Assembly: GCA_019695185.1 (NCBI GenBank) | Contig: JAIBAN010000004.1 | Coordinates: forward strand, 62,001 to 126,000 | DNA length: 64,000 nt | Direction: 5' to 3' | DNA from: Blastocatellia bacterium | GTDB taxonomy: Bacteria; Acidobacteriota; Blastocatellia; Chloracidobacteriales; Chloracidobacteriaceae | Shown: in pieces, positions 1 to 58,616 of the stretch | How positions within the stretch are numbered: the first letter of the stretch is position 1 | Layout of the letters: the number at the start of each line of letters is the position of its first letter | Notes under the pieces: generated by a model | What the model was told of the DNA's origin: nothing | The model's database searches: none | Seen by the model: only the letters and a program-made list of their open reading frames with translations | Made by a program: the position numbers and the translations under genes

Positions 1-3000
1 CGGAATTACCTCTGACACGCAAGGCAACCTCTATGTAGCGGATTTTGGCAACCATCGAATCCGCCGGATTTCACCCGAAGGCATCACCACCACTCTTGCC
101 GGAAGCATGGCCGGATTACGGGATGAACCGGGCTCGCTGGCGATGTTCAACGGTCCCCGTGGCATTGTCTATGCCAATGGCTATTTATATGTGGCTGATT
201 TGAATAATGCCGTGATTCGCCGGGTTGCCCTCAACGGAACGGTCAAAACCTTTTCCGGCAATGGAACCAGAGGCATGAACGACGGCATGCCCCACCAGGC
301 CCAATTTGACGCTCCACGGGCGGTTACCGCCGATGCCATGGGCAATCTTTTTGTGGCGGACGGGGTGCGGGTGCGCCGGATTTCCGGGGATGGAAAAGTC
401 CAGACCATTGCGGGCAGCACCCAGGGAGTACGGGACGGCCTCATTGGGCAGGCGTTGTTTGACACGCTGGGAAGCATTTCGCTTGACGGGGCCGGCAACA
501 TTTACGTGGCGGATGTCGGCAACCGCGCCATTCGCAAAATCACGCGGGCAGGCGAAGTGGTGACCTTGCCGCAAGGCCCCATGGCCAATCGGAGTGGTGC
601 CCGGATTGAAGAACCGGTGGCGGTGGTGGCTTCTCCGGAGGGACTTCTCTATGTTGCCGATGCGGCTGATTTTTCCATCAAATGTATGTTTCCGGATGGC
701 AGCGTGGTGACCATTGCCGGAACCGGCGAGCAAGGCAACCGGGATGGAAAAGGCGGCTATGGGGATGGCTGTGCCGAATTCTGGTCCCCCACAGGGCTGA
801 CCCTGGTCAAAAACATGCTCTATGTGACCGACCGCGACACCCACCTGATTCGTGCCATTCGCATTCCGCGCCCGTTTGAGGCGGCCAAAACGGAAACCGC
901 GATTGAAGCAACTCCGGCTCCGCTGGCACCCCCGCCCTCACCCCGGCCTGTGCCGGACGTCACCCAGGCTTTGCTGGGAACCGTTCCTTTTGGTTCAGCG
1001 CCAAGCGCTTCAGCCCCCGCTTTTGCCCCACAGGTACCACCCCAATCGGTCCAACAACCCCGAGTCAGGGTGCCTGTCAGCCGGAATGCCCCGGATTTCC
1101 TGGCCACGACCCTGGCCGGAAGCGACGTTGGGTTTCGGGATGGCAACGGCGAGGCAGTCCGTTTCAATTGCCCCATGGGGCTCTGTGTGGATTCAGCCGG
1201 AACGATTTATGTGGCTGACCACTTTAATCATTGCATTCGGGGCGTCACCAACGATGGCATGGTTTTGACATTGGCCGGCAGCCTGGAAAGCGGTTTCAAG
1301 GACGATGTGGGCACCCGTGCCTGTTTCAAAGGCCCTTTGGGAATTGCAGTTGGCCCGGAAGGAAACCTGTATGTGTCAGACCATCTCAACGGGTGCGTCC
1401 GGCTTGTGACAATTAAAGGCGAGGTGCGTACCCTGGCCGGCTCCGGAACCCCCGGTTTCCGCGACGGCACAGGTCGCAATGCCCAGTTTGAAGGTCCGAA
1501 AGGGGTTGCGGTGGATCCTGCCGGGCGCATTTGGGTGGCTGATGGCGCGACCATTCGGTGTATTGAAGAGGATGGCAAGGTAACGACTATTGCCGGTGGT
1601 TCGCGCGGGTTTGCTGACGGACGGGGCAGTGCCGCTGCTTTCGGCTGGCCTTATGCTTTGGCACTTGACATTGAGGGAACCTGTTATGTGGCGGATGCCG
1701 CCAATCATGCCATTCGGCGGGTGACTTATGATGGTGAGGTGACCACCGTTTATGGAGCGCCTCATCTGAAGGAACTCAATTTCCCAAGTGGGATTGCCGT
1801 GGACTTGGCAGGCACCATCTATGTCGCTGACACCAACAACCATCGGATTCTCCGGCTTGATGCGGAAGAACACGGTGGAGTGAAAGCCAGCCTGATTTGT
1901 GGTTCACGCCAGGGAACCCGGAATGGTCGCGGGGCGGATGCCGAACTGAACGGTCCCCGTGGATTGGGTCTGGGACCGGGTGGGGAATTGTTTGTGGCTG
2001 ATTCCGGCGCACATCGGATTGTTAAGATTGCCACTTCCGCAATCGGGGTCGCCGTTCCCGGCCCTGGCCCCAAAGCCTTGTCCGGGATTGCCGGGCCGGC
2101 TCCAACCCTGGATGCCCCACTGGATGTGCCGGTTCCAATCAATCCCTCGGCACCGCTTCCAACACCCGATAAACCGGTTCCGGTTTCATCTTCCGGCAAT
2201 AATTTCCCAACCTGGAGTTCGGAACCGGAAGCTCCTCCGGTTGCCCCAGCCCCGGTTTTTGAAGCTGCCCCTTCTTTTTCGTCAGATCCGGTACCGCGCG
2301 CAATTCGGGGTTTTGTCAAGAAGCTGGAACGGGACGAACCCGAACCGTATGTGGTTCATGTGGAAGATACCACCGAGGATGTTCCGCAGGTGACGGTGGA
2401 ACAGGTCCATGTTTCCATCGGTCAGCCGTCTGCTTCTTTTTCACATGACCAAATAACAGTCAATGACGCTCCTACAATACCTGCACCAATGGTGAAAGCG
2501 GCACAACCAGGGGCAACGGCTCCCGTCCCCCGGCGGCAACGCACCCCGGTTTCGATGTTTGGCTGGGGGCTGGAACTGACCGGTCCCAACGTGGTCAAAA
2601 CCGAACCGGACGGAGCACTCTATCTCAATACCTGCCAGCAGAGAGAGGGCAGCGCCTTTTTCTTCCACCCTTGGGAGGTTTCCTCCGAGGACGAGGTGGT
2701 GGTGGAAGCCCGCATGCAGCTCATCAGCTATATTGGGGAACCGATTCACACGGGCTGTGCTATCTGGGTGGAAAACGAACGGTATGCCGACGCCCTGCTT
2801 ATTCATCCCCAGGGAATCAGCCTGATGCGGGCACCGGATTTGACTCACTCGATGGATACGGTTTCCACGCCGCACACGTATCTGATGGTGCTGCATCGGC
2901 AAAATATCAAAGTCTTTGTGGATGGACAGCTTTGTCTCAATGGAGAAAACCGGTTCTGGCTGCGCCCTGGGGCCAAATCGGGTGATGTTTCCAATGTCCG

Positions 3001-3088
3001 CCGCTGGCTGGCTTTCGGGGATGGTTCATCGGATGCTGCCAGTGAGTCCCGCTGGTTTTTTGTCAAATACCAAACCGGCAAATCGTAA
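1..3088 (+). CDS. NHL-repeat protein, 5' end outside window
   Basis: The reading frame is open from the first bases of the window and already encodes an NHL repeat (nt 2-106), so the gene is truncated by the window edge and the ATG at 107 is not the real start. NHL repeats ('LYVAD..N..IR' signatures) fill nt 2-880 and again nt 1090-2035; each block could form a beta-propeller. They are separated by a Pro/Ala-rich linker (about 890-1080). A second Pro-rich linker (about 2040-2560) leads to a C-terminal domain of about 180 residues that looks like a concanavalin/LamG-type jelly roll ('VFVDGQLCL'), possibly glycan-binding. The role is unknown; NHL propellers usually bind proteins or ligands. The stop lies 14 bp before hisB, so the two genes may be co-transcribed. 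Confidence 0.85.
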
Positions 3089-46612: not shown

Positions 46613-49600
46613 ATGGAAAACAAAGACCTGAATAAAAAACCAAGTATTATTGAAATGCTGGAGGCCCATCGGCGCGAACGGGAAAGCCTGCATTGGGAGG
46701 GAACCTTCCGGGAATATTTTGAAATGGTGGCCCAAAACCCGAAACTGGCGGAACTGTCACATGCCAGAATGTGTGACATGATTCTGGCTGCCGGGCAGAC
46801 CAAAGTCCATGAAGGCACGCGCGATGAAGTAACCCGTTATCATTTCTTTAGCGAAGAACTGTTTGGAATTGACGAAGCGATTGAACAACTGGTTGATTAT
46901 TTCAAATCCGCTGCCCAACGGCTGGAAGTCCGAAAACGGATTCTGCTGTTGATGGGACCGGTCGGTGGCGGCAAATCCACGATTGTGACCCTGCTCAAAC
47001 GGGGGTTGGAAAACTGGACCAGGGCACAGGAAGGCGCGGTCTATGCCATCAAAGGCTGCCCGATGCACGGCGACCCGCTCCATTTGATTCCGCCGGATTT
47101 GCGCAAGGAAGTCGCCAAACACTACGGCCTGTATATCGAAGGCGAACTCAGCCCGCAGGCCCGCTACGACTTGGAGCATACCTACAAAGGCCGCCACGAA
47201 GACGTTTTGATTGAGCGGATTTTCTTCTCGGAAAAAGACCGCATCGGGATTGGGACATTTGCGCCTTCAGACCCGAAATGTGTCTCAGGTGACACAATTC
47301 TTTTAACAGACCAAGGCATGGTGCGGTTTGATGAACTCCAATTCCGCCTCCAGGCCAGGGAAGACGAGTTTGTGCCTTTGACCGTTCAAGTCAGCGGACG
47401 GAGCGGGCTGGAACCGACCTCGCATTTCTATAACAACGGCATCCAAGCAACCCGAAAACTCCGAACCCGCCTTGGTTATGAACTTGAAGGGTCACTGGTC
47501 CATCCGGTGCTGGTTCTCAAAAATGGTCGGACCGAATGGGTCAAACTGAAAGACCTCAAAGTCGGCGACTGCGTTGCTTTACAGCGTGGGCAGGGAATAT
47601 TCGGAACAGAAACCAGACTTCCGGAATTCACCTACAACGGTCCGTCAAGTCGGGGGCAAAACAAAAATTTGACCCTTCCCAGTGAACTCACTCAGGAGTT
47701 GGCCCGGTTGTTGGGATATATCGTGGCTGAAGGTTCACTGACTGACACTGCTTTGTGGGTCACTAACGGCACTCCGCGGGTGGTTGACGATATTGGTAAA
47801 ATTTGTGACCGGTTGTTTGGAATTCGCCCGAAAACCTATGGCAAACAAGGTACCTATGCGCTTTCGCTGTCAATTTCATCAGTGAAACTGGTCCAGTGGT
47901 TGGAACAGGTTTGTGGCATTACCCGTGGAGCCACTCACAAACGAATCCCGCAGATTGTGATGACAGCTCCGAAAGACATCTTCCTGGCCTTTTTGGAAGG
48001 GCTGTCCTGGGGCGACGGCACCATCAGCACGCGTGGCGAACTGGGCAGCAACCGTTACAAACTGGCAACTGCCTCATACGAGATGGCGCGGCAGCTTCAC
48101 GTCGCCTTGCTCAATCTGGGCATTGTGGCTGCCTTGCACAAGGAAACCATCAAGGCGAAGTTCACCGCCTATTCCATTATTGTGACAGGTGATTCGGTGG
48201 TGGATTTGGTGGAGTTGATTCCATCGCTCCGCGAGAAATGCACCGATAACCCGACACAACTTTCCATCCGGCGCGGACGCACCAACTTTGACACGATTCC
48301 GGAAATGCACTCGGCTGTCCGGGCACTGCTCGATGAGGCATCCCAACAAGGAAAGTCACTCTCCCGATTTCGGCGCTATGCCACTGCCGCCGGTTGGGGG
48401 CGTAATCTGACGCATACGTCGCTGGAGCAGATTCTTACCGAAAGCGAACGCATCGTGGGTCCATACTCAACTGCGCTGGAACGCTTGCGCGAGCGTCAGG
48501 ACAAAAACCTGCTGTGGCTGGAAGTGCAGGAAATTACGGAAGGCGAAGCGCATGTTTATGACCTGACCGTACCGGGTGCACATTCCTTCTGCGCCAACGG
48601 CTTTATCAACCACAACAGCCAGGACATTTCCGAACTGACAGGTTCCATTGACCTTTCGACCATTGGCGAAGTTGGCGTCGAAAGCGACCCCCGCGCCTAT
48701 CGGTTTGACGGTGAACTCAACATCGCCAACCGAGGGATTATGGAATTCATAGAGATTCTTAAGTCAGACGAGAAGTTCTTGTATTCGCTGTTGACACTTT
48801 CACAGGAACAATCCATCAAGACCGGTCGCTTCGCTATGATTTATGCTGACGAAGTGATTGTCTCGCACACGAACGAAAACGAATATCAGGCGTTTGTCGG
48901 TAATCGGAAAAATGAGGCGTTGCAAGACCGTATCATCATGATCAAGGTTCCGTACAACCTCAAAATCACCGAAGAAGAGCGGATTTACCATAAACTTCTC
49001 TCTCAAAGCGAATTGAAGAACGTACACATTGCACCTTACACTTTAAGGATTGCGGCTATGTTTGCTGTCCTGACCCGGCTTGAACCGCCGAAGCGGGCCA
49101 ACGTTGATTTGCTCAAGAAAATGAAACTCTATGACGGCGAGGACGTGGATGGGTTCAAGAGCAAGGATGTCAAGGAACTCAAGGCGGAAACAGTGCGCGA
49201 AGGCATGTTTGGGATTTCGCCCCGCTACATCATCAATCGGCTCTCAAACGCGCTGGTGCAGGAAGGGAAACAATACATCACGCCGATTGATGCGCTCCGA
49301 ACCATCCGCGACGGGTTTGACCAGCATACCGGCATCACGGCGGAAGAGCGCGAGCAGTATCACAACCTGATTTCGCTCGTCCGCAAGGAATATGACGAAA
49401 TCGCCAAGACCGAAGTCCAGCGGGCATTTGTCTATTCGTTTGAGGAGATGGCGAAAAACATCTGCAACAATTACCTGGATAACGTGGAAGCCTACTGCAA
49501 CAAGGAAAAAATCAAAGACCCAATTACTGAAGAGGAGATGGAGCCGGATGAAAAACTGATGCGCTCCATTGAGGAACAAATCGGGATTTCCGAAAATGCC

Positions 49601-49885
49601 AAGAACACGTTCCGGCAGGAAATTCTGATTCGCATTTCGAGCTACGCTCGCAAAGGCAAACGCTTTGAATACACGTCGCACGAACGGCTGAAGGAAGCGA
49701 TTGAAAAGAAAATTTTCACCGACCTGAAAGATGTGGTGAAAATCACCACTTCGGTCAAATCGCCCGATGCCGACCAATTGCGGCGCATCAACGAAGTGAT
49801 TGACCGACTGGTCCGCAATCACGGTTACACAACGGAAAGCGCCAACGACCTGTTGGCTTATGTCGGCTCATTGCTGGCAAGATAA
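46613..49885 (+). CDS. prkA: PrkA serine protein kinase, intein-interrupted
   Basis: PrkA is a AAA-type serine/threonine kinase used in stress and starvation responses. The precursor has 1090 residues. Removing residues 223-668 leaves 644, the normal length. The host part has Walker A 'GPVGGGKST' (115-123), 'RIFFSEKDRIGIGTFAPSDPK' before the insertion, and 'SQDISELTGSIDLS', 'YRFDGELNIANRG' after it, followed by the C-terminal kinase-like domain. The intein sits inside a stretch conserved in the family (PSDPK/SQDISEL). Excision is needed for a normal kinase, so splicing could gate activity (inference). No spore-germination or yeaH-like gene is next to it. Confidence 0.95.
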   Translation: MENKDLNKKPSIIEMLEAHRRERESLHWEGTFREYFEMVAQNPKLAELSHARMCDMILAAGQTKVHEGTRDEVTRYHFFSEELFGIDEAIEQLVDYFKSAAQRLEVRKRILLLMGPVGGGKSTIVTLLKRGLENWTRAQEGAVYAIKGCPMHGDPLHLIPPDLRKEVAKHYGLYIEGELSPQARYDLEHTYKGRHEDVLIERIFFSEKDRIGIGTFAPSDPKCVSGDTILLTDQGMVRFDELQFRLQAREDEFVPLTVQVSGRSGLEPTSHFYNNGIQATRKLRTRLGYELEGSLVHPVLVLKNGRTEWVKLKDLKVGDCVALQRGQGIFGTETRLPEFTYNGPSSRGQNKNLTLPSELTQELARLLGYIVAEGSLTDTALWVTNGTPRVVDDIGKICDRLFGIRPKTYGKQGTYALSLSISSVKLVQWLEQVCGITRGATHKRIPQIVMTAPKDIFLAFLEGLSWGDGTISTRGELGSNRYKLATASYEMARQLHVALLNLGIVAALHKETIKAKFTAYSIIVTGDSVVDLVELIPSLREKCTDNPTQLSIRRGRTNFDTIPEMHSAVRALLDEASQQGKSLSRFRRYATAAGWGRNLTHTSLEQILTESERIVGPYSTALERLRERQDKNLLWLEVQEITEGEAHVYDLTVPGAHSFCANGFINHNSQDISELTGSIDLSTIGEVGVESDPRAYRFDGELNIANRGIMEFIEILKSDEKFLYSLLTLSQEQSIKTGRFAMIYADEVIVSHTNENEYQAFVGNRKNEALQDRIIMIKVPYNLKITEEERIYHKLLSQSELKNVHIAPYTLRIAAMFAVLTRLEPPKRANVDLLKKMKLYDGEDVDGFKSKDVKELKAETVREGMFGISPRYIINRLSNALVQEGKQYITPIDALRTIRDGFDQHTGITAEEREQYHNLISLVRKEYDEIAKTEVQRAFVYSFEEMAKNICNNYLDNVEAYCNKEKIKDPITEEEMEPDEKLMRSIEEQIGISENAKNTFRQEILIRISSYARKGKRFEYTSHERLKEAIEKKIFTDLKDVVKITTSVKSPDADQLRRINEVIDRLVRNHGYTTESANDLLAYVGSLLAR
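47279..48616 (+). other. Intein with LAGLIDADG homing endonuclease in PrkA
   Basis: 446 residues, starting with Cys223 (block A 'CVSGDTILL') and ending with His-Asn (667-668) in 'GFINHN', followed by Ser669 as the +1 nucleophile. Block B has His297 in 'GSLVHPVLVL', and the C-terminal block F reads 'HVYDLTVPGAHSFCAN'. All residues needed for class 1 splicing are present. Between the splicing blocks are two dodecapeptide motifs, 'LLGYIVAEG' (366-374) and 'LEGLSWGDGT' (461-470), with acidic residues Glu373 and Asp468, so the homing endonuclease may also be functional. The insertion keeps the reading frame. Confidence 0.97.
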
Positions 49886-53420: not shown

Positions 53421-56117
53421 TTAGAAATCCAATTCAGCGTAGCTCGTCCGGCCACCACTATTGGTGACGGTGACACGGTTCAAACCCTTCACAAAGTTGA
53501 ACTTCTTTTTATTTCCCTTGAGAACAATCTGGGTGTCGGACTGAGTGGCCAGGAGTCCGGTTACATCCTGGTCGTTGACGGCGACTTTGGCTCCGGTCGC
53601 TCCAAATCCTGACCCGGTAATCATCAGATTGGGTTTGGTAAAGTTGGCATTTGAAATTGACACACAGGGAATCGGGGTACCTGCGGCTGAAATTTTGGCG
53701 ATTCCTTTTATAACCCGCACGGCATGATTGGCCGGGTCAGCCAGATACAGGTTCCCGGCTTGGTCTACGGCCAGACTTCCTGCCAGCGCAAGCCCCAGGC
53801 TGGCCCGATTGGCCGGACCTCCGTCACCTGTATAGAGGCTGGAATCTGTTCCCGCTACGGTTGAAATCATTTGGGTTTTGCCCTCAATCCGGCGGATGCG
53901 GTGATTCAACGTGTCCGTAAGAAAAATGTCACCATTTCCATCCACCAACAGGCCGTAAGGACGGTTTATGCTGGAGCTGGGGGCCGGGCCGCCATCACCG
54001 CCAAAACTGGCCAATCCGTTGCCTGCGACGGTGGATGCCAATTGGCTACAGGGTTCAATTCGACGAATTCGATGATTGAGTGTGTCTGTTACATAGAGGA
54101 CCCCATTCGTATCCAGCGCCACCCCGGTCGGGTTGTTGAAACTGACCAGATTGGCGGTTCCACCGTCTCCGCCAAACGTTGGTCTGCCGTCTCCTGCAAG
54201 AGTGGAAATGATTCCCGAACGACTGTCTATCTGCCGAATCCGGCTATTGCGCGAATCGGCTATCAGAAGGTTGCCGGAACTGTCCAAAGCGAGACTGGCA
54301 GGGGCAAAAAGGCTGGCCGCAGTGGCTGGCCCGCCATCGCCTTCAAAGGTAAAGCGACCATCTCCGGCAATGGTGGTCATGGTTCCCGTTCCGGATTGGA
54401 TGTGGCGAACCCGGTTGTTTGCCATATCACACACGAGCAGATTGTTTTGACTATCCAGCAGCATGCCGCCGGGGTCCAGCGAGGCTGTCACTGCCGGGCC
54501 GCCATCACCTGAAAAGGTCGCGCTTCCGGTTCCGGCGATTGTTGTGGCTGTGCCTGTTCCGGCCTCCACCCGGCGAATCCGTTTGCGGGTTGCATCACCC
54601 ACAAACAGGTTGTTGTTGCGGTCAAGTGCAAGAAACGTCGGGGCCAAAAAACCTGCCCCCAGTGCTGTGCTTCCTTCCCTGCTCATGATCCAGTCACCAT
54701 TGCCCACGATGGTGGTAATGATTTTGGTGGCTGCCGTCACCCGACGAATCCGGTGGGTTCCTGCGTCTCCAATATAAAGGTTCCCTTCCTGGTCTACTGC
54801 AACCGCTGTGGGGTCAAGCAATTGGGCGTTTTCCGCAGGACCTCCGTCACCCAGGGTGGTTCCTTTTCCGCCGACAATGGTGGTAATGATTCCACTTTGG
54901 GCATCCACCCGGCGGACCCGCCCGTTTCCTGCAATATAGAGGTTTCCTGCTGCATCCAGGCAAAATCCGCGCGGAGTTCCCAGTGCAGCATCAAGCGCAA
55001 GTCCTCCGTCCCCCGAAATTTCCGTAAATCCGTTTCCGGCAATGGTGGTAATGGTGCCGGTGGCGGCTGCCACCCGGCGAATGCGGTGATTTTGCCCATC
55101 CAGAATAAGCAGGTTTCCGGCTGCATCATAAGCCAGTCCGAGCGGTGTCAGATTGGCTTCCAGGGCTGACCCGCCATCACCCAAAGTCTGACCGTTTCCA
55201 TTGGCAATGGTTTTGAGGGTGCCTGATTTTTCAATGCGAAAAACCCGGTTGCTGCGCCAATCAGCCAGGACCGTGGTTCCTTCCCTATCAACCGTTACAG
55301 CCACCGGCAGAAAACCTGTATTGAGCGCCGAACCGCCGTCACCTGTAAAGAACGGTTTTCGGTTTCCGGCAATGGTTGTAATCAGCCCTGAGTCAACCGC
55401 CACCCGGCGGACAATGTAATTTTGGGTGTCTGCAATCAACAGATTGCCTGCACCATCAAGTGCCACAGCCGTTGGGCCATTGAGCCGGGCGGCAAAACTG
55501 AGGCTGCCGTCTCCGCTGTCACCGCGTGCGCCGTTGCCGGCAATGGTCATTGTGGTACCGCTCACCGGGTCAAAGCGCCGGACCCGGTCCATTTCAGCGT
55601 CGGCAATATACAAATTGCCTTGGGCGTCAAACGCCAAGCTGGAGGGCGTTAGGGCAACTTCGGTTCCCTTCCGGTTGTCACCCACGGCTGGAATGCCACC
55701 GGCAATGGTTGTGATTTCGCCCACAGCAAGCTCCACCAGTGGCTTGGGTTGTACCAGAATTTCCTGTTGGGCAATTCCCAGCGGAGTGCGCAAGGTCAAG
55801 GTTCGGGTTCCAGGGACTGCCTGAGCTGGAATCCGAAACCGTAATTCAGTTGGACCCGTCACCTGGACCGTCGGGATAACGGCATCACCCACTGCGGCTT
55901 GGATGTCGTTGGTAAACCGCAAACCTGTGACAACACATTCAATTCCACCTTCCATGCGGATTATGCCGGGCGAAACACTGCTGATTTCAGGTGGCAGGGA
56001 AGTGGCTTGGGAGAACGCCCGGACTGTTTCCGATGGATTGGCCCACCGCCACAAGGTCAAGGCACACAGAAAGCACAACAGGGAGATTTTTCCCAGGCGA
56101 TTTCGCAATAAAAACAT
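53421..56117 (-). CDS. Secreted NHL-repeat protein with TIG-like ends
   Basis: An 898-residue exported protein. A signal-anchor segment ('ISLLCFLCALTLWRW') is followed by an IPT/TIG domain (about 40-130, 'PEISSVSPGIIRMEGGIECVVTG'), about a dozen NHL repeats ('NLYIADAEMDRVRRFD', 'IAGNG..FSGDGGPA') and a C-terminal IPT/TIG domain ('NLMITGSGFGATGAKVAVND'). NHL propellers with these flanks are frequent in acidobacterial secretomes; the ligand is unknown. The start is ATG 56117, chosen for the signal; the frame runs on to 56402 across repeat-derived sequence. No strong ribosome-binding site is seen. Confidence 0.88.
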   Translation of the reverse strand: MFLLRNRLGKISLLCFLCALTLWRWANPSETVRAFSQATSLPPEISSVSPGIIRMEGGIECVVTGLRFTNDIQAAVGDAVIPTVQVTGPTELRFRIPAQAVPGTRTLTLRTPLGIAQQEILVQPKPLVELAVGEITTIAGGIPAVGDNRKGTEVALTPSSLAFDAQGNLYIADAEMDRVRRFDPVSGTTMTIAGNGARGDSGDGSLSFAARLNGPTAVALDGAGNLLIADTQNYIVRRVAVDSGLITTIAGNRKPFFTGDGGSALNTGFLPVAVTVDREGTTVLADWRSNRVFRIEKSGTLKTIANGNGQTLGDGGSALEANLTPLGLAYDAAGNLLILDGQNHRIRRVAAATGTITTIAGNGFTEISGDGGLALDAALGTPRGFCLDAAGNLYIAGNGRVRRVDAQSGIITTIVGGKGTTLGDGGPAENAQLLDPTAVAVDQEGNLYIGDAGTHRIRRVTAATKIITTIVGNGDWIMSREGSTALGAGFLAPTFLALDRNNNLFVGDATRKRIRRVEAGTGTATTIAGTGSATFSGDGGPAVTASLDPGGMLLDSQNNLLVCDMANNRVRHIQSGTGTMTTIAGDGRFTFEGDGGPATAASLFAPASLALDSSGNLLIADSRNSRIRQIDSRSGIISTLAGDGRPTFGGDGGTANLVSFNNPTGVALDTNGVLYVTDTLNHRIRRIEPCSQLASTVAGNGLASFGGDGGPAPSSSINRPYGLLVDGNGDIFLTDTLNHRIRRIEGKTQMISTVAGTDSSLYTGDGGPANRASLGLALAGSLAVDQAGNLYLADPANHAVRVIKGIAKISAAGTPIPCVSISNANFTKPNLMITGSGFGATGAKVAVNDQDVTGLLATQSDTQIVLKGNKKKFNFVKGLNRVTVTNSGGRTSYAELDF

Positions 56118-56254
56118 AGGTGAATAGCTCGCAGGGCTGAGAATAGCTTCAGGACTGAGGACTGAGCTGGAGCCTTTTTTCAGAGGGATGGCCACACTCA
56201 GGTTGAAAAATTTTGGTCCTGTAAATATTTCGGTGCTTTGTCGAACAGCTTGTA

Positions 56255-56344
56255 TTTCACCGCAGAGGCGCTGAGAAGGCGCTGCGGATGCGCTGAGAAA
56301 AATAAAGAAAAACTCTGCGAAAACTCTGCGCCTCTGCGGTGAAA
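56255..56344. repeat. Inverted 'TTTCACCGCAGAGGCGC' repeat
   Basis: Perfect 17-bp arms (56255-56271 and 56328-56344) around a purine-rich spacer with further GCGCTGAGA copies. It lies between the NHL and ExeA-HlyD genes. Confidence 0.93.
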
Positions 56345-56426
56345 GATAAAATGGCACCAAAAAAATTACAGGTTGAAAATTTTTCAGAAGGCAATGCTTC
56401 ATTCTGAAGTGACTCCCGCCCCATTC

Positions 56427-58616
56427 TTATTGGAAACGGACTTCAGCCGGTTGGCCCACCAGCAGTGCATGTTCCGGGCGCTTGATTTCGACTTCGACCC
56501 GATGGGTGCCGTCCTGGTCCGGAACCGGATTCCGGGCAATGACGGTTCCCGCGATTGTTTGGGGCGGCACGGTCGGTAATGTGACCTGAGCCGAACCCCC
56601 TTCGTGCAGGGCATCAACCAGATTGGCACTGACTGCCACCCGCAGCAAAAGGGTTTCCAGATTGGCCAGGGTTGCCAAAGGGGTTCCCACTGCAACCTGG
56701 TCACCGACACCGACGGAAAGCGCGATCACATATCCATCCGCCGTTGCCCGGACCGTACAGTCAGCCAGGCGCTGTTCCGCCAATTTCAGTTGGGCTTCGG
56801 CCCGTTCCAGTCGCTGGCCGGCCAGCGCCACTGCGGCCACGCGCTGGCGGGCTTCGGCTGCGTCAGCCTGGACCGCTTCCGTGACGACCTTTTCTTTTTG
56901 GGATTGTTGAGCGGAAACCAGTCGTTCCTGAGCGGCAGCGGCAGCTTCAGCCGCCTGAAGGTCGGCCTCCGCCACACTGTAAGCGGTCGCCTGTTCTTCG
57001 TATTTATCCTGTGAGACAAGCCCGTCACGATAAAGCCGTTCATAGCGTTCCAGGCGCAACCGGGCCTGTTCAAAGACTGCTCTGGCACGGTTGACGGATT
57101 CCTGTCGTTGTGGAACCGGAACGCTTTCGGCACGACGTTGCGCCAATGCCACTTCACCAGTGGCGGCTGCCACCGTCGCCCGGTTGGAACGGGCAAACCG
57201 CTTTTCCGTATCGGCCTGGGTTCGTTCCTGGGCAGCCAAATCCCGTTCAATGCGGGCAAGTTCGACTGACCGTTTGGCTTCAGTGTCATCGAGCAACAGC
57301 AAAACCTGACCGGTTGTGACGAATTCACCGATTTTGACTGGTAATGACCGCACCGTACTGGCTTGTGGGGCCACAGCTTTCCATTCCTGTGCCGGGTGCA
57401 ATTTCCCGGTAAAGACCGTGTTGACCAAGGCTGCATTCCGAACCGGTACCGACCCTGGCGTGGTTGCCGGGACAACTGATTGACGCAACCAATAGACTCC
57501 ACCCACGATCATTGCCATCAATGCCACCAAGGCGGTTGCCCAACGGGTGGAAACCAGCGGCGGTTCGGGTGACTGGGTAAGCAGGGCGGATGGTGGCCGG
57601 GAAGCTAATTCATGCGAATCCGGAATGGCTGGCAGATTGTTTTCCGAGCGAATCAATTCCGAAGAAGCAGGGGAGCCCCGCTCCAGGGAGTCAGTCGATT
57701 CACCGGCTGGTTCGGCAAATCTGGTTTGGGGTTCAGCCAATCGCTCAAAAAGGGAAGTGAGTTGGGGTTGTGGTTCAACCGAGGGGGTTGTTTCCGCCGT
57801 CACAAAGGTGGTGCCGGGCAGAGGTTCAAAGTCCTCTGCTGCTCGTTCGACTTCGCGGGCTGAGATTTCGCCCACCCCCGCTTCAAACCCGGCGAGCAAC
57901 GCCCCATCACAGAGCTGGTTTATCAGGCAAGGGTTTCCTTGAGACCGTTTGTAGATAGTCTCCAGGGCTGCACCCGTAAACAATAACCGCCGCGTTCCAG
58001 CCCGCCGCAACCGGGTTTGCACAAACAGGTCGGTTTCTTCCTTGGTAAGCGGGTGCAGCTTGGCTTTGACCCCGTGGAGGTGCGGCAGATACCCTGGCAG
58101 GCGGCGCAACCGTCGGTCTAAATCCACATCACCGCACAGGACAATCTGAAGCAGGCGGGACCCGTTTTCCTCGTGGTGGGTGAGCAGGCACAGTGAGGCC
58201 AACAATGAACTTTCCATTTCGTCGGCTTTATCCACCAGCAAAACGGTTAGATTTCCCTGGCGGTGCCGTTCCAGTAACAGACGATGAAACTGGGTTGGGA
58301 GGGAAACCCGCGCCTCCGCATCCCTCTCAAGTCCAAACTGTTCAGCCAAAAGTTCAAGCAGACTGGGGGAAATTTGCCGGGCATCCGGAATCACACCAAA
58401 CAAAACCTGGTTTTTTAATTCTTCCCGCAACACCTCAAGTAAAAGCGTTTTTCCGCTACCAGTGGAACCGGCCAGGGTGAGCAGTCCACGCCGGGCCAGA
58501 ATCCCCTCCCGGAGTGCCCGCCGGGCCTCTGTATGACTGTTGGCAGCACAATAAAAGCGAGGGTCTGTGGTCAATGAAAAAGGCCATTCACGCAGTCCAT
58601 AAAATGAAAGATACAT
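56427..58616 (-). CDS. ExeA-type AAA ATPase fused to HlyD-type membrane fusion protein
   Basis: A single 729-residue frame. Residues 1-265 form an ExeA/GspA-like ATPase: start 'MYLSFYGLREWPFSLTTDPRF', Walker A 'GSTGSGKT' (50-57), Walker B-like 'TVLLVDKADE' (124-133, with Lys where Glu is usual), 'LQIVLCGD' (156-163) and 'SQGNPCLINQLCDGALL'. A Pro/Ser-rich linker (265-355) leads to one transmembrane helix (359-377). Residues 415-729 form a periplasmic adaptor: a split lipoyl/barrel-sandwich domain ('PVKIGEFVTTGQVLLLLDD', 428-446, and 'TADGYVIALSVGVGDQV', 625-641), long coiled coils (450-620) and a beta-barrel. No transporter gene is adjacent. Role unknown. Confidence 0.9.
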   Translation of the reverse strand: MYLSFYGLREWPFSLTTDPRFYCAANSHTEARRALREGILARRGLLTLAGSTGSGKTLLLEVLREELKNQVLFGVIPDARQISPSLLELLAEQFGLERDAEARVSLPTQFHRLLLERHRQGNLTVLLVDKADEMESSLLASLCLLTHHEENGSRLLQIVLCGDVDLDRRLRRLPGYLPHLHGVKAKLHPLTKEETDLFVQTRLRRAGTRRLLFTGAALETIYKRSQGNPCLINQLCDGALLAGFEAGVGEISAREVERAAEDFEPLPGTTFVTAETTPSVEPQPQLTSLFERLAEPQTRFAEPAGESTDSLERGSPASSELIRSENNLPAIPDSHELASRPPSALLTQSPEPPLVSTRWATALVALMAMIVGGVYWLRQSVVPATTPGSVPVRNAALVNTVFTGKLHPAQEWKAVAPQASTVRSLPVKIGEFVTTGQVLLLLDDTEAKRSVELARIERDLAAQERTQADTEKRFARSNRATVAAATGEVALAQRRAESVPVPQRQESVNRARAVFEQARLRLERYERLYRDGLVSQDKYEEQATAYSVAEADLQAAEAAAAAQERLVSAQQSQKEKVVTEAVQADAAEARQRVAAVALAGQRLERAEAQLKLAEQRLADCTVRATADGYVIALSVGVGDQVAVGTPLATLANLETLLLRVAVSANLVDALHEGGSAQVTLPTVPPQTIAGTVIARNPVPDQDGTHRVEVEIKRPEHALLVGQPAEVRFQ

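Follow-up and report, generated by a model that had tools for sequence, protein, structure and literature searches.

An ExeA-like domain fused to an HlyD-type adaptor in Acidobacteriota, with relatives linked to Pel-like exopolysaccharide genes

Introduction

The alginate co-polymerase Alg44 has PilZ on the cytosolic side, a membrane region and, in the periplasm, a domain resembling MexA, and how cytosolic signals reach the periplasmic adaptor is an open question even for this protein (PMC3815931). The Pel systems available for comparison are encoded by pelABCDEFG or, in Gram-positives, by pelDEADAFG (PMC7112168, PMC7112194), and the substrates of Agd3 and PelA are GalNAc-containing polymers of Aspergillus and Pseudomonas (PMC7229062, PMC12022489). 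The adaptors MacA, AcrA and, with the variant RLT, HlyD bind TolC through an RxxxLxxxxxxS motif (PMC3391258). ExeA of A. hydrophila multimerises with ExeB on peptidoglycan, and the formation of this complex needs its ATPase domain (PMC4098917).

Here we examined a stretch of 64,000 nucleotides from a Blastocatellia bacterium (the window; contig JAIBAN010000004.1, positions 62,001 to 126,000), in which a single gene encodes an ExeA-like domain and an HlyD-type adaptor. Alg44 is a clear functional precedent for this fusion (PMC3815931). Both have a cytosolic control domain, one membrane region, an MFP-type periplasmic arm and a polysaccharide synthase/export setting, but the fusion carries an ExeA-like domain in place of PilZ, for which Pfam gave no match in the protein, and has a PelF/PelG-type partner in place of Alg8. 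With Pel systems the module shares PelF, above the NCBIfam cut-off, a PelG-like exporter and, in relatives, PelA-like hydrolase and deacetylase functions, but there is no match to the GGDEF of PelD and an HlyD-type adaptor is linked instead (together with a TolC-type channel in two genomes). EmrA and MacA share with the adaptor their fold, a long hairpin and an RLS tip, whereas the fusion has a cytosolic domain and is linked to polysaccharide genes, not to EmrB or MacB. As for ExeA/GspA and the XrtA ATPase family (TIGR03015), residues 1-262 align along nearly the full profile and the order of AAA domain, one membrane helix and periplasmic domain is that of ExeA (PMC4098917), but the catalytic motifs are degenerate and the periplasmic part is of HlyD type, not peptidoglycan-binding. 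Literature searches returned nothing relevant on PelF, PelG and HlyD together, on an ExeA-HlyD fusion, on a response regulator with HlyD and PelF, or on Pel/HlyD in cyanobacteria.

We favour, with a probability of roughly 0.6, the reading that the fusion is the inner-membrane-anchored adaptor of a Pel-like exopolysaccharide synthesis/export machine, and that the control domain on its cytosolic side is exchangeable. The protein is most likely a handle for the control of polysaccharide export, not a motor or a drug pump. This reading is built on the architecture, its conservation, the linkage of adaptor genes to PelF/PelG genes, the exchange of domains and the loss of catalytic motifs from a domain that retains its P-loop. 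The ATP-driven secretin or pump frame in which the preliminary description had set the protein is set aside, since the adaptor does not resemble an efflux or secretin part and its relatives are tied to polysaccharide machinery of the PelF/PelG type.

Results

The fusion gene occupies 56427..58616 of the window on the minus strand, as do all its parts, and encodes 729 residues, with its ATG start at the 58616 side and its stop at 56427-56429. From 58616 to 56427 the minus-strand frame is uninterrupted and without internal stop, the plus-strand translation being stop-ridden. The ExeA/GspA-like (AAA_22, XrtA-ATPase-like) cytosolic domain (residues 1-268; 57813..58616) contains an intact Walker A motif, GSTGSGKT (residues 50-57; 58446..58469), and an altered Walker B motif (58227..58232) in which Asp129 is kept and the catalytic Glu is replaced by Lys130. 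It is followed by a proline-rich variable linker of low model confidence (residues 269-356; 57549..57812), a single transmembrane helix (residues 357-381; 57474..57548) and an HlyD/EmrA-type periplasmic adaptor (residues 383-729; 56430..57470) made of lipoyl halves, an alpha-hairpin (about 445-618) and a beta-barrel. The RxxxLxxxxxxS motif (RLS, the TolC-docking motif of other adaptors) is found at the hairpin tip (R524-L528-S535; 57012..57047).

Pfam matches above cut-off were obtained for AAA_22 at 42-170 (E 4e-13), HlyD_D23 at 560-719 (E 2e-15) and HlyD_3 at 621-721 (E 4e-12). The NCBIfam profile TIGR03015 (XrtA/PEP-CTERM ATPase) matches residues 1-262 with 145.4 bits (E 2e-42), below its 324.5-bit equivalog cut-off; hence the domain is an AAA_22 domain with Walker A present that does not reach the equivalog score. 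TIGR01730 (RND_mfp) matches the adaptor with 108 bits, above its 94.9 cut-off. With the HlyD_D23/HlyD_3 matches, an N-terminal anchor, an alpha-hairpin between lipoyl halves and an RLS tip, the adaptor displays the features of HlyD/MFP adaptors.

A full-length fusion at 59% identity is present in genome G003, of another genus of the same family (L042:15031-17436). The two proteins are 61% identical over the ExeA-like domain (60.8%), 26% over the linker and 67% over the adaptor (67.1%); thus constraint acts on both domains, and an assembly error does not account for the join. The dN/dS ratio between the fusions is unusable, synonymous sites being saturated. Several claims of the preliminary description are thus confirmed: ATPase and adaptor lie on one chain, as seen from the open frame, the Pfam/NCBIfam domains and the G003 homologue; one membrane helix stands at the junction, as a single hydrophobic segment (about 357-381); the Walker B motif does have Lys for Glu, with Arg in the second fusion; and no pump gene adjoins the fusion among its neighbours in the window. 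Moreover, the relative in G003 has the same fusion and not two separate genes at this place, and the HlyD part matches its family in profile searches.

The flanking genes encode an NHL-repeat protein and a TldD-type metallopeptidase. Around the fusion gene, a promoter scan found no promoter-like site nearby and a terminator scan gave one terminator-like match, fewer than the chance mean. The large NHL-repeat/TIG protein directly downstream (53421-56402, minus strand) is related to window 107-3088 and to L043:4350-8471, so a family of such proteins is present here.

In a tree of the adaptor part, the fusion, receiver-bearing and plain forms group together (90/95), apart from other HlyD proteins. 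The closest stand-alone relatives of the adaptor, at about 30-41% identity, are found in G010, G011, G013 and G208, and a profile search of named genomes added an adaptor of Planktothrix sp. PCC 11201; a plain protein search of genome contigs gave no match where the profile search gave matches. The RLS motif stands at the aligned hairpin tip in every member of this clade. A single RxxxLxxxxxxS has about an 8% chance of arising in a shuffled hairpin; conservation at the aligned tip is the stronger evidence.

In G010 and G208 the gene directly after the adaptor encodes a PelF-type GT4 glycosyltransferase (NF038011, above cut-off). In Planktothrix sp. PCC 11201 the adaptor, pelF and a PelG-like gene cluster with an epimerase-like gene and the gene of a secreted polysaccharide deacetylase. 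The G208 cluster also includes an Agd3-type deacetylase, along with a protein that matches Spherulin4 weakly. The genes that follow the fusion in G003 encode a membrane protein of 724 aa, a GHL15/GH114-like protein and PelF. The fusion gene of the window genome is not a neighbour of pelF. Indeed, pelF (152 bits against a cut-off of 100) and an adjoining PelG-like gene lie on contig C196, and contig C11 carries the 724-aa membrane protein and the hydrolase at 16-20 kb and the fusion at 118-121 kb, about 100 kb apart. Hence the partner is missing at the fusion locus because the partner genes are dispersed in this genome. A family of multi-span membrane proteins of 520-720 aa, with a conserved C-terminal stretch of 150 residues and no Pfam match, accompanies the PelF/adaptor module (L077:10335-12509, L042:12684-14858, L078:7955-9781, L087:228-2021).

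The N-terminal domain of this adaptor is exchangeable, being ExeA-like, a receiver, or none. A cyanobacterium, G511, has this adaptor with a response-regulator receiver domain (92.6 bits) at the N-terminus in place of the ExeA domain; pelF and the gene of a Spherulin4 protein (strong match) come next. Only a short N-terminal tail is present in the adaptors of G010, G011, G208, Planktothrix and G675. The PelG-like gene of G511 is split into two adjacent open frames (G511:C3:5375248-5376782).

Among 396 Acidobacteriota genomes, strong matches to the adaptor profile were found in 5 (E <1e-160; the next at about 1e-31) and this pelF in 7, all five adaptor genomes among them. The overlap has a hypergeometric p of about 3e-10, a figure inflated by shared ancestry. 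Since few candidates per genome were scored, and the known Planktothrix adaptor was missed by the same procedure, absences in the count are soft. Furthermore, members of the PelG-like family occur in every one of the nine genomes that have a clade adaptor (9/9), as well as in G096 and G316, and none occurs in G001, a genome without strong adaptor or pelF. The Pfam family PelG (PF16933) is reached by the G316 member, with 29.8 against 29 bits, and gave no match for those of the window genome (G000), G010 and Planktothrix. PelD (PF16963) was below cut-off or absent in all nine genomes searched; therefore this is not a standard Pel system.

A TolC-type gene linked to the fusion itself was not found. 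In G096 and G316, which have pelF without a clade adaptor, pelF is immediately preceded by genes for another kind of HlyD-type adaptor and for an outer-membrane protein of the TolC family; this TolC link is an analogy only, because these adaptors fall outside the clade in the tree. The consecutive genes for HlyD adaptor, TolC-family protein, PelF and PelG-like protein in these two genomes of another Acidobacteriota family (L104:7391-12523, L103:7997-13473) are possibly a tripartite Pel-type export operon in their own right.

The ExeA-like half was compared by alignment with its 28 nearest stand-alone relatives, all from other genomes. These keep Walker B DE, sensor-1 GQ(P/T)EL, RQL(K/R)QR and the sensor-2 Arg (GIPR, GVPR or GIAR), the sensor labels following AAA+ conventions with no structure of this protein behind them. 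Both fusions are without all four, with DKAD or DRAD, GDVDL or GRSDL, RQLKQR absent, and GNPC or GNPG, and both retain GxxGSGKT and the Walker B Asp. With the P-loop and this Asp kept, the loss of four motifs makes ATP hydrolysis unlikely and leaves nucleotide binding possible, although the P-loop may be a relic. The Walker B change, from which a weakened hydrolysis had been predicted, is real but is only one of four motifs lost in both fusions. Likewise, of the proposed signalling of nucleotide state to the periplasmic coiled coil, the hydrolysis-driven part is unlikely in view of these losses, and the part that requires nucleotide binding may hold. From its motifs, we read the ExeA half as a nucleotide-binding or structural input domain and not a motor.

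Three of the nearest stand-alone ExeA genes were examined in context and all lie in exopolysaccharide loci (Wzz/Wza), with Wzz-type, AAA_31 kinase-like, sugar-transferase and Poly_export genes. Thus, given the adaptor relatives beside pelF, both halves of the fusion have kin in polysaccharide export.

An ExeA-like domain that no longer binds nucleotide, and only sets the oligomeric state or recruits a partner within the polysaccharide machine, would be consistent with its degenerate motifs and with the ATPase-domain-dependent multimerisation of A. hydrophila ExeA with ExeB (PMC4098917). We hold this purely structural role to be rather unlikely, as Walker A is intact in both fusions despite 39% divergence of the domain. 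More improbable still is an ATP-driven transducer, the idea of the preliminary description, in which ATP hydrolysis by the ExeA domain mechanically drives the periplasmic coiled coil. In its favour are the conservation of the domain and its intact Walker A and Walker B Asp, but the catalytic Glu, sensor 1, RQLKQR and the sensor-2 Arg are lost in both fusions and kept in the 28 relatives, and the receiver-bearing and plain adaptors show that a motor is dispensable.

The adaptor was for the most part modelled with confidence, showing the membrane helix, the lipoyl halves, the hairpin helices (445-618) and the beta-barrel. The best structural match of the adaptor is EmrA (Foldseek E 2e-17); chains of the MacAB-TolC and EmrAB-TolC complexes rank next. 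The model alignment was composed of the window and related-locus sequences; the ExeA half was poorly modelled (pLDDT <50 across most of 1-188) because the alignment had no depth there, and no conclusion was drawn from it. Given EmrA and MacA as nearest solved structures and the RND_mfp profile above cut-off, the fusion could be thought to serve a pump that exports drugs, metals or proteins, as an adaptor in which the ATPase domain is an incidental addition. This has little chance of being right, since no pump gene lies by the fusion in the window or in G003, and the adaptors form a separate clade with a pelF/pelG link.

The fusion is rare, with 2 of 396 Acidobacteriota genomes sampled carrying it, a lower bound as the largest searches scored only few candidates per genome. 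Within the same limit, no further fusion was found among 58 relatives, 14 genomes of the order or the rest of the 396 phylum genomes. Two genomes, G222 and G346, have long ExeA frames that might have been further fusions, but these were rejected because their alignment to the fusion is confined to its ATPase part. A plasmid collection gave 27 matching records, none covering 80% of the query and hence no plasmid fusion, and a search of viral contigs for ExeA relatives gave none. Although the draft genome is in 222 contigs, an artefact of assembly or annotation joining two genes can be dismissed, being already refuted by the independent genome with the same fusion at 59% identity, and the frame is open throughout.

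Discussion

If the fusion is the controlled adaptor of a Pel-like exporter, it would oligomerise around or beside the PelG-like exporter, and its hairpin tip would probably dock a TolC-type outer-membrane channel via the RLS motif. On the cytosolic side, the ExeA-like domain may bind a nucleotide, ATP or another, that it does not turn over efficiently, and would report the cytosolic state across the membrane or merely hold the ring together. The reported state could then switch export on or off, comparable to the PilZ domain in Alg44 or the degenerate GGDEF in PelD. A more far-reaching proposal, which we put forward only tentatively, is a Pel-type machine in which a TolC-style tripartite conduit replaces PelB/PelC and PelD and the HlyD-type adaptor would itself be the control unit; lineages would swap its cytosolic domain, either a receiver or a catalytically dead, nucleotide-sensing ExeA-type AAA domain, and the single-pass adaptor would gate export from inside.

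Outer-membrane export of a Pel-like polymer without PelD but with an HlyD-type adaptor is not described in the literature searched. The natural proteins in which this adaptor is combined with various inside domains (ExeA-like, receiver) or with none represent a ready comparison set for the question of how cytosolic signals reach a periplasmic adaptor, and would widen the range of HlyD-type adaptors beyond small molecules and proteins to the export of Pel-like polysaccharides.

Elsewhere in the window, a gene for a PrkA serine protein kinase (46613-49885, plus strand) contains an intein, in frame and with a LAGLIDADG domain, that interrupts it. Its G003 homologue (L043:15133-19761) is longer, with 1542 aa, and displays two intein-splicing and two LAGLIDADG matches, so that it apparently contains two inteins.
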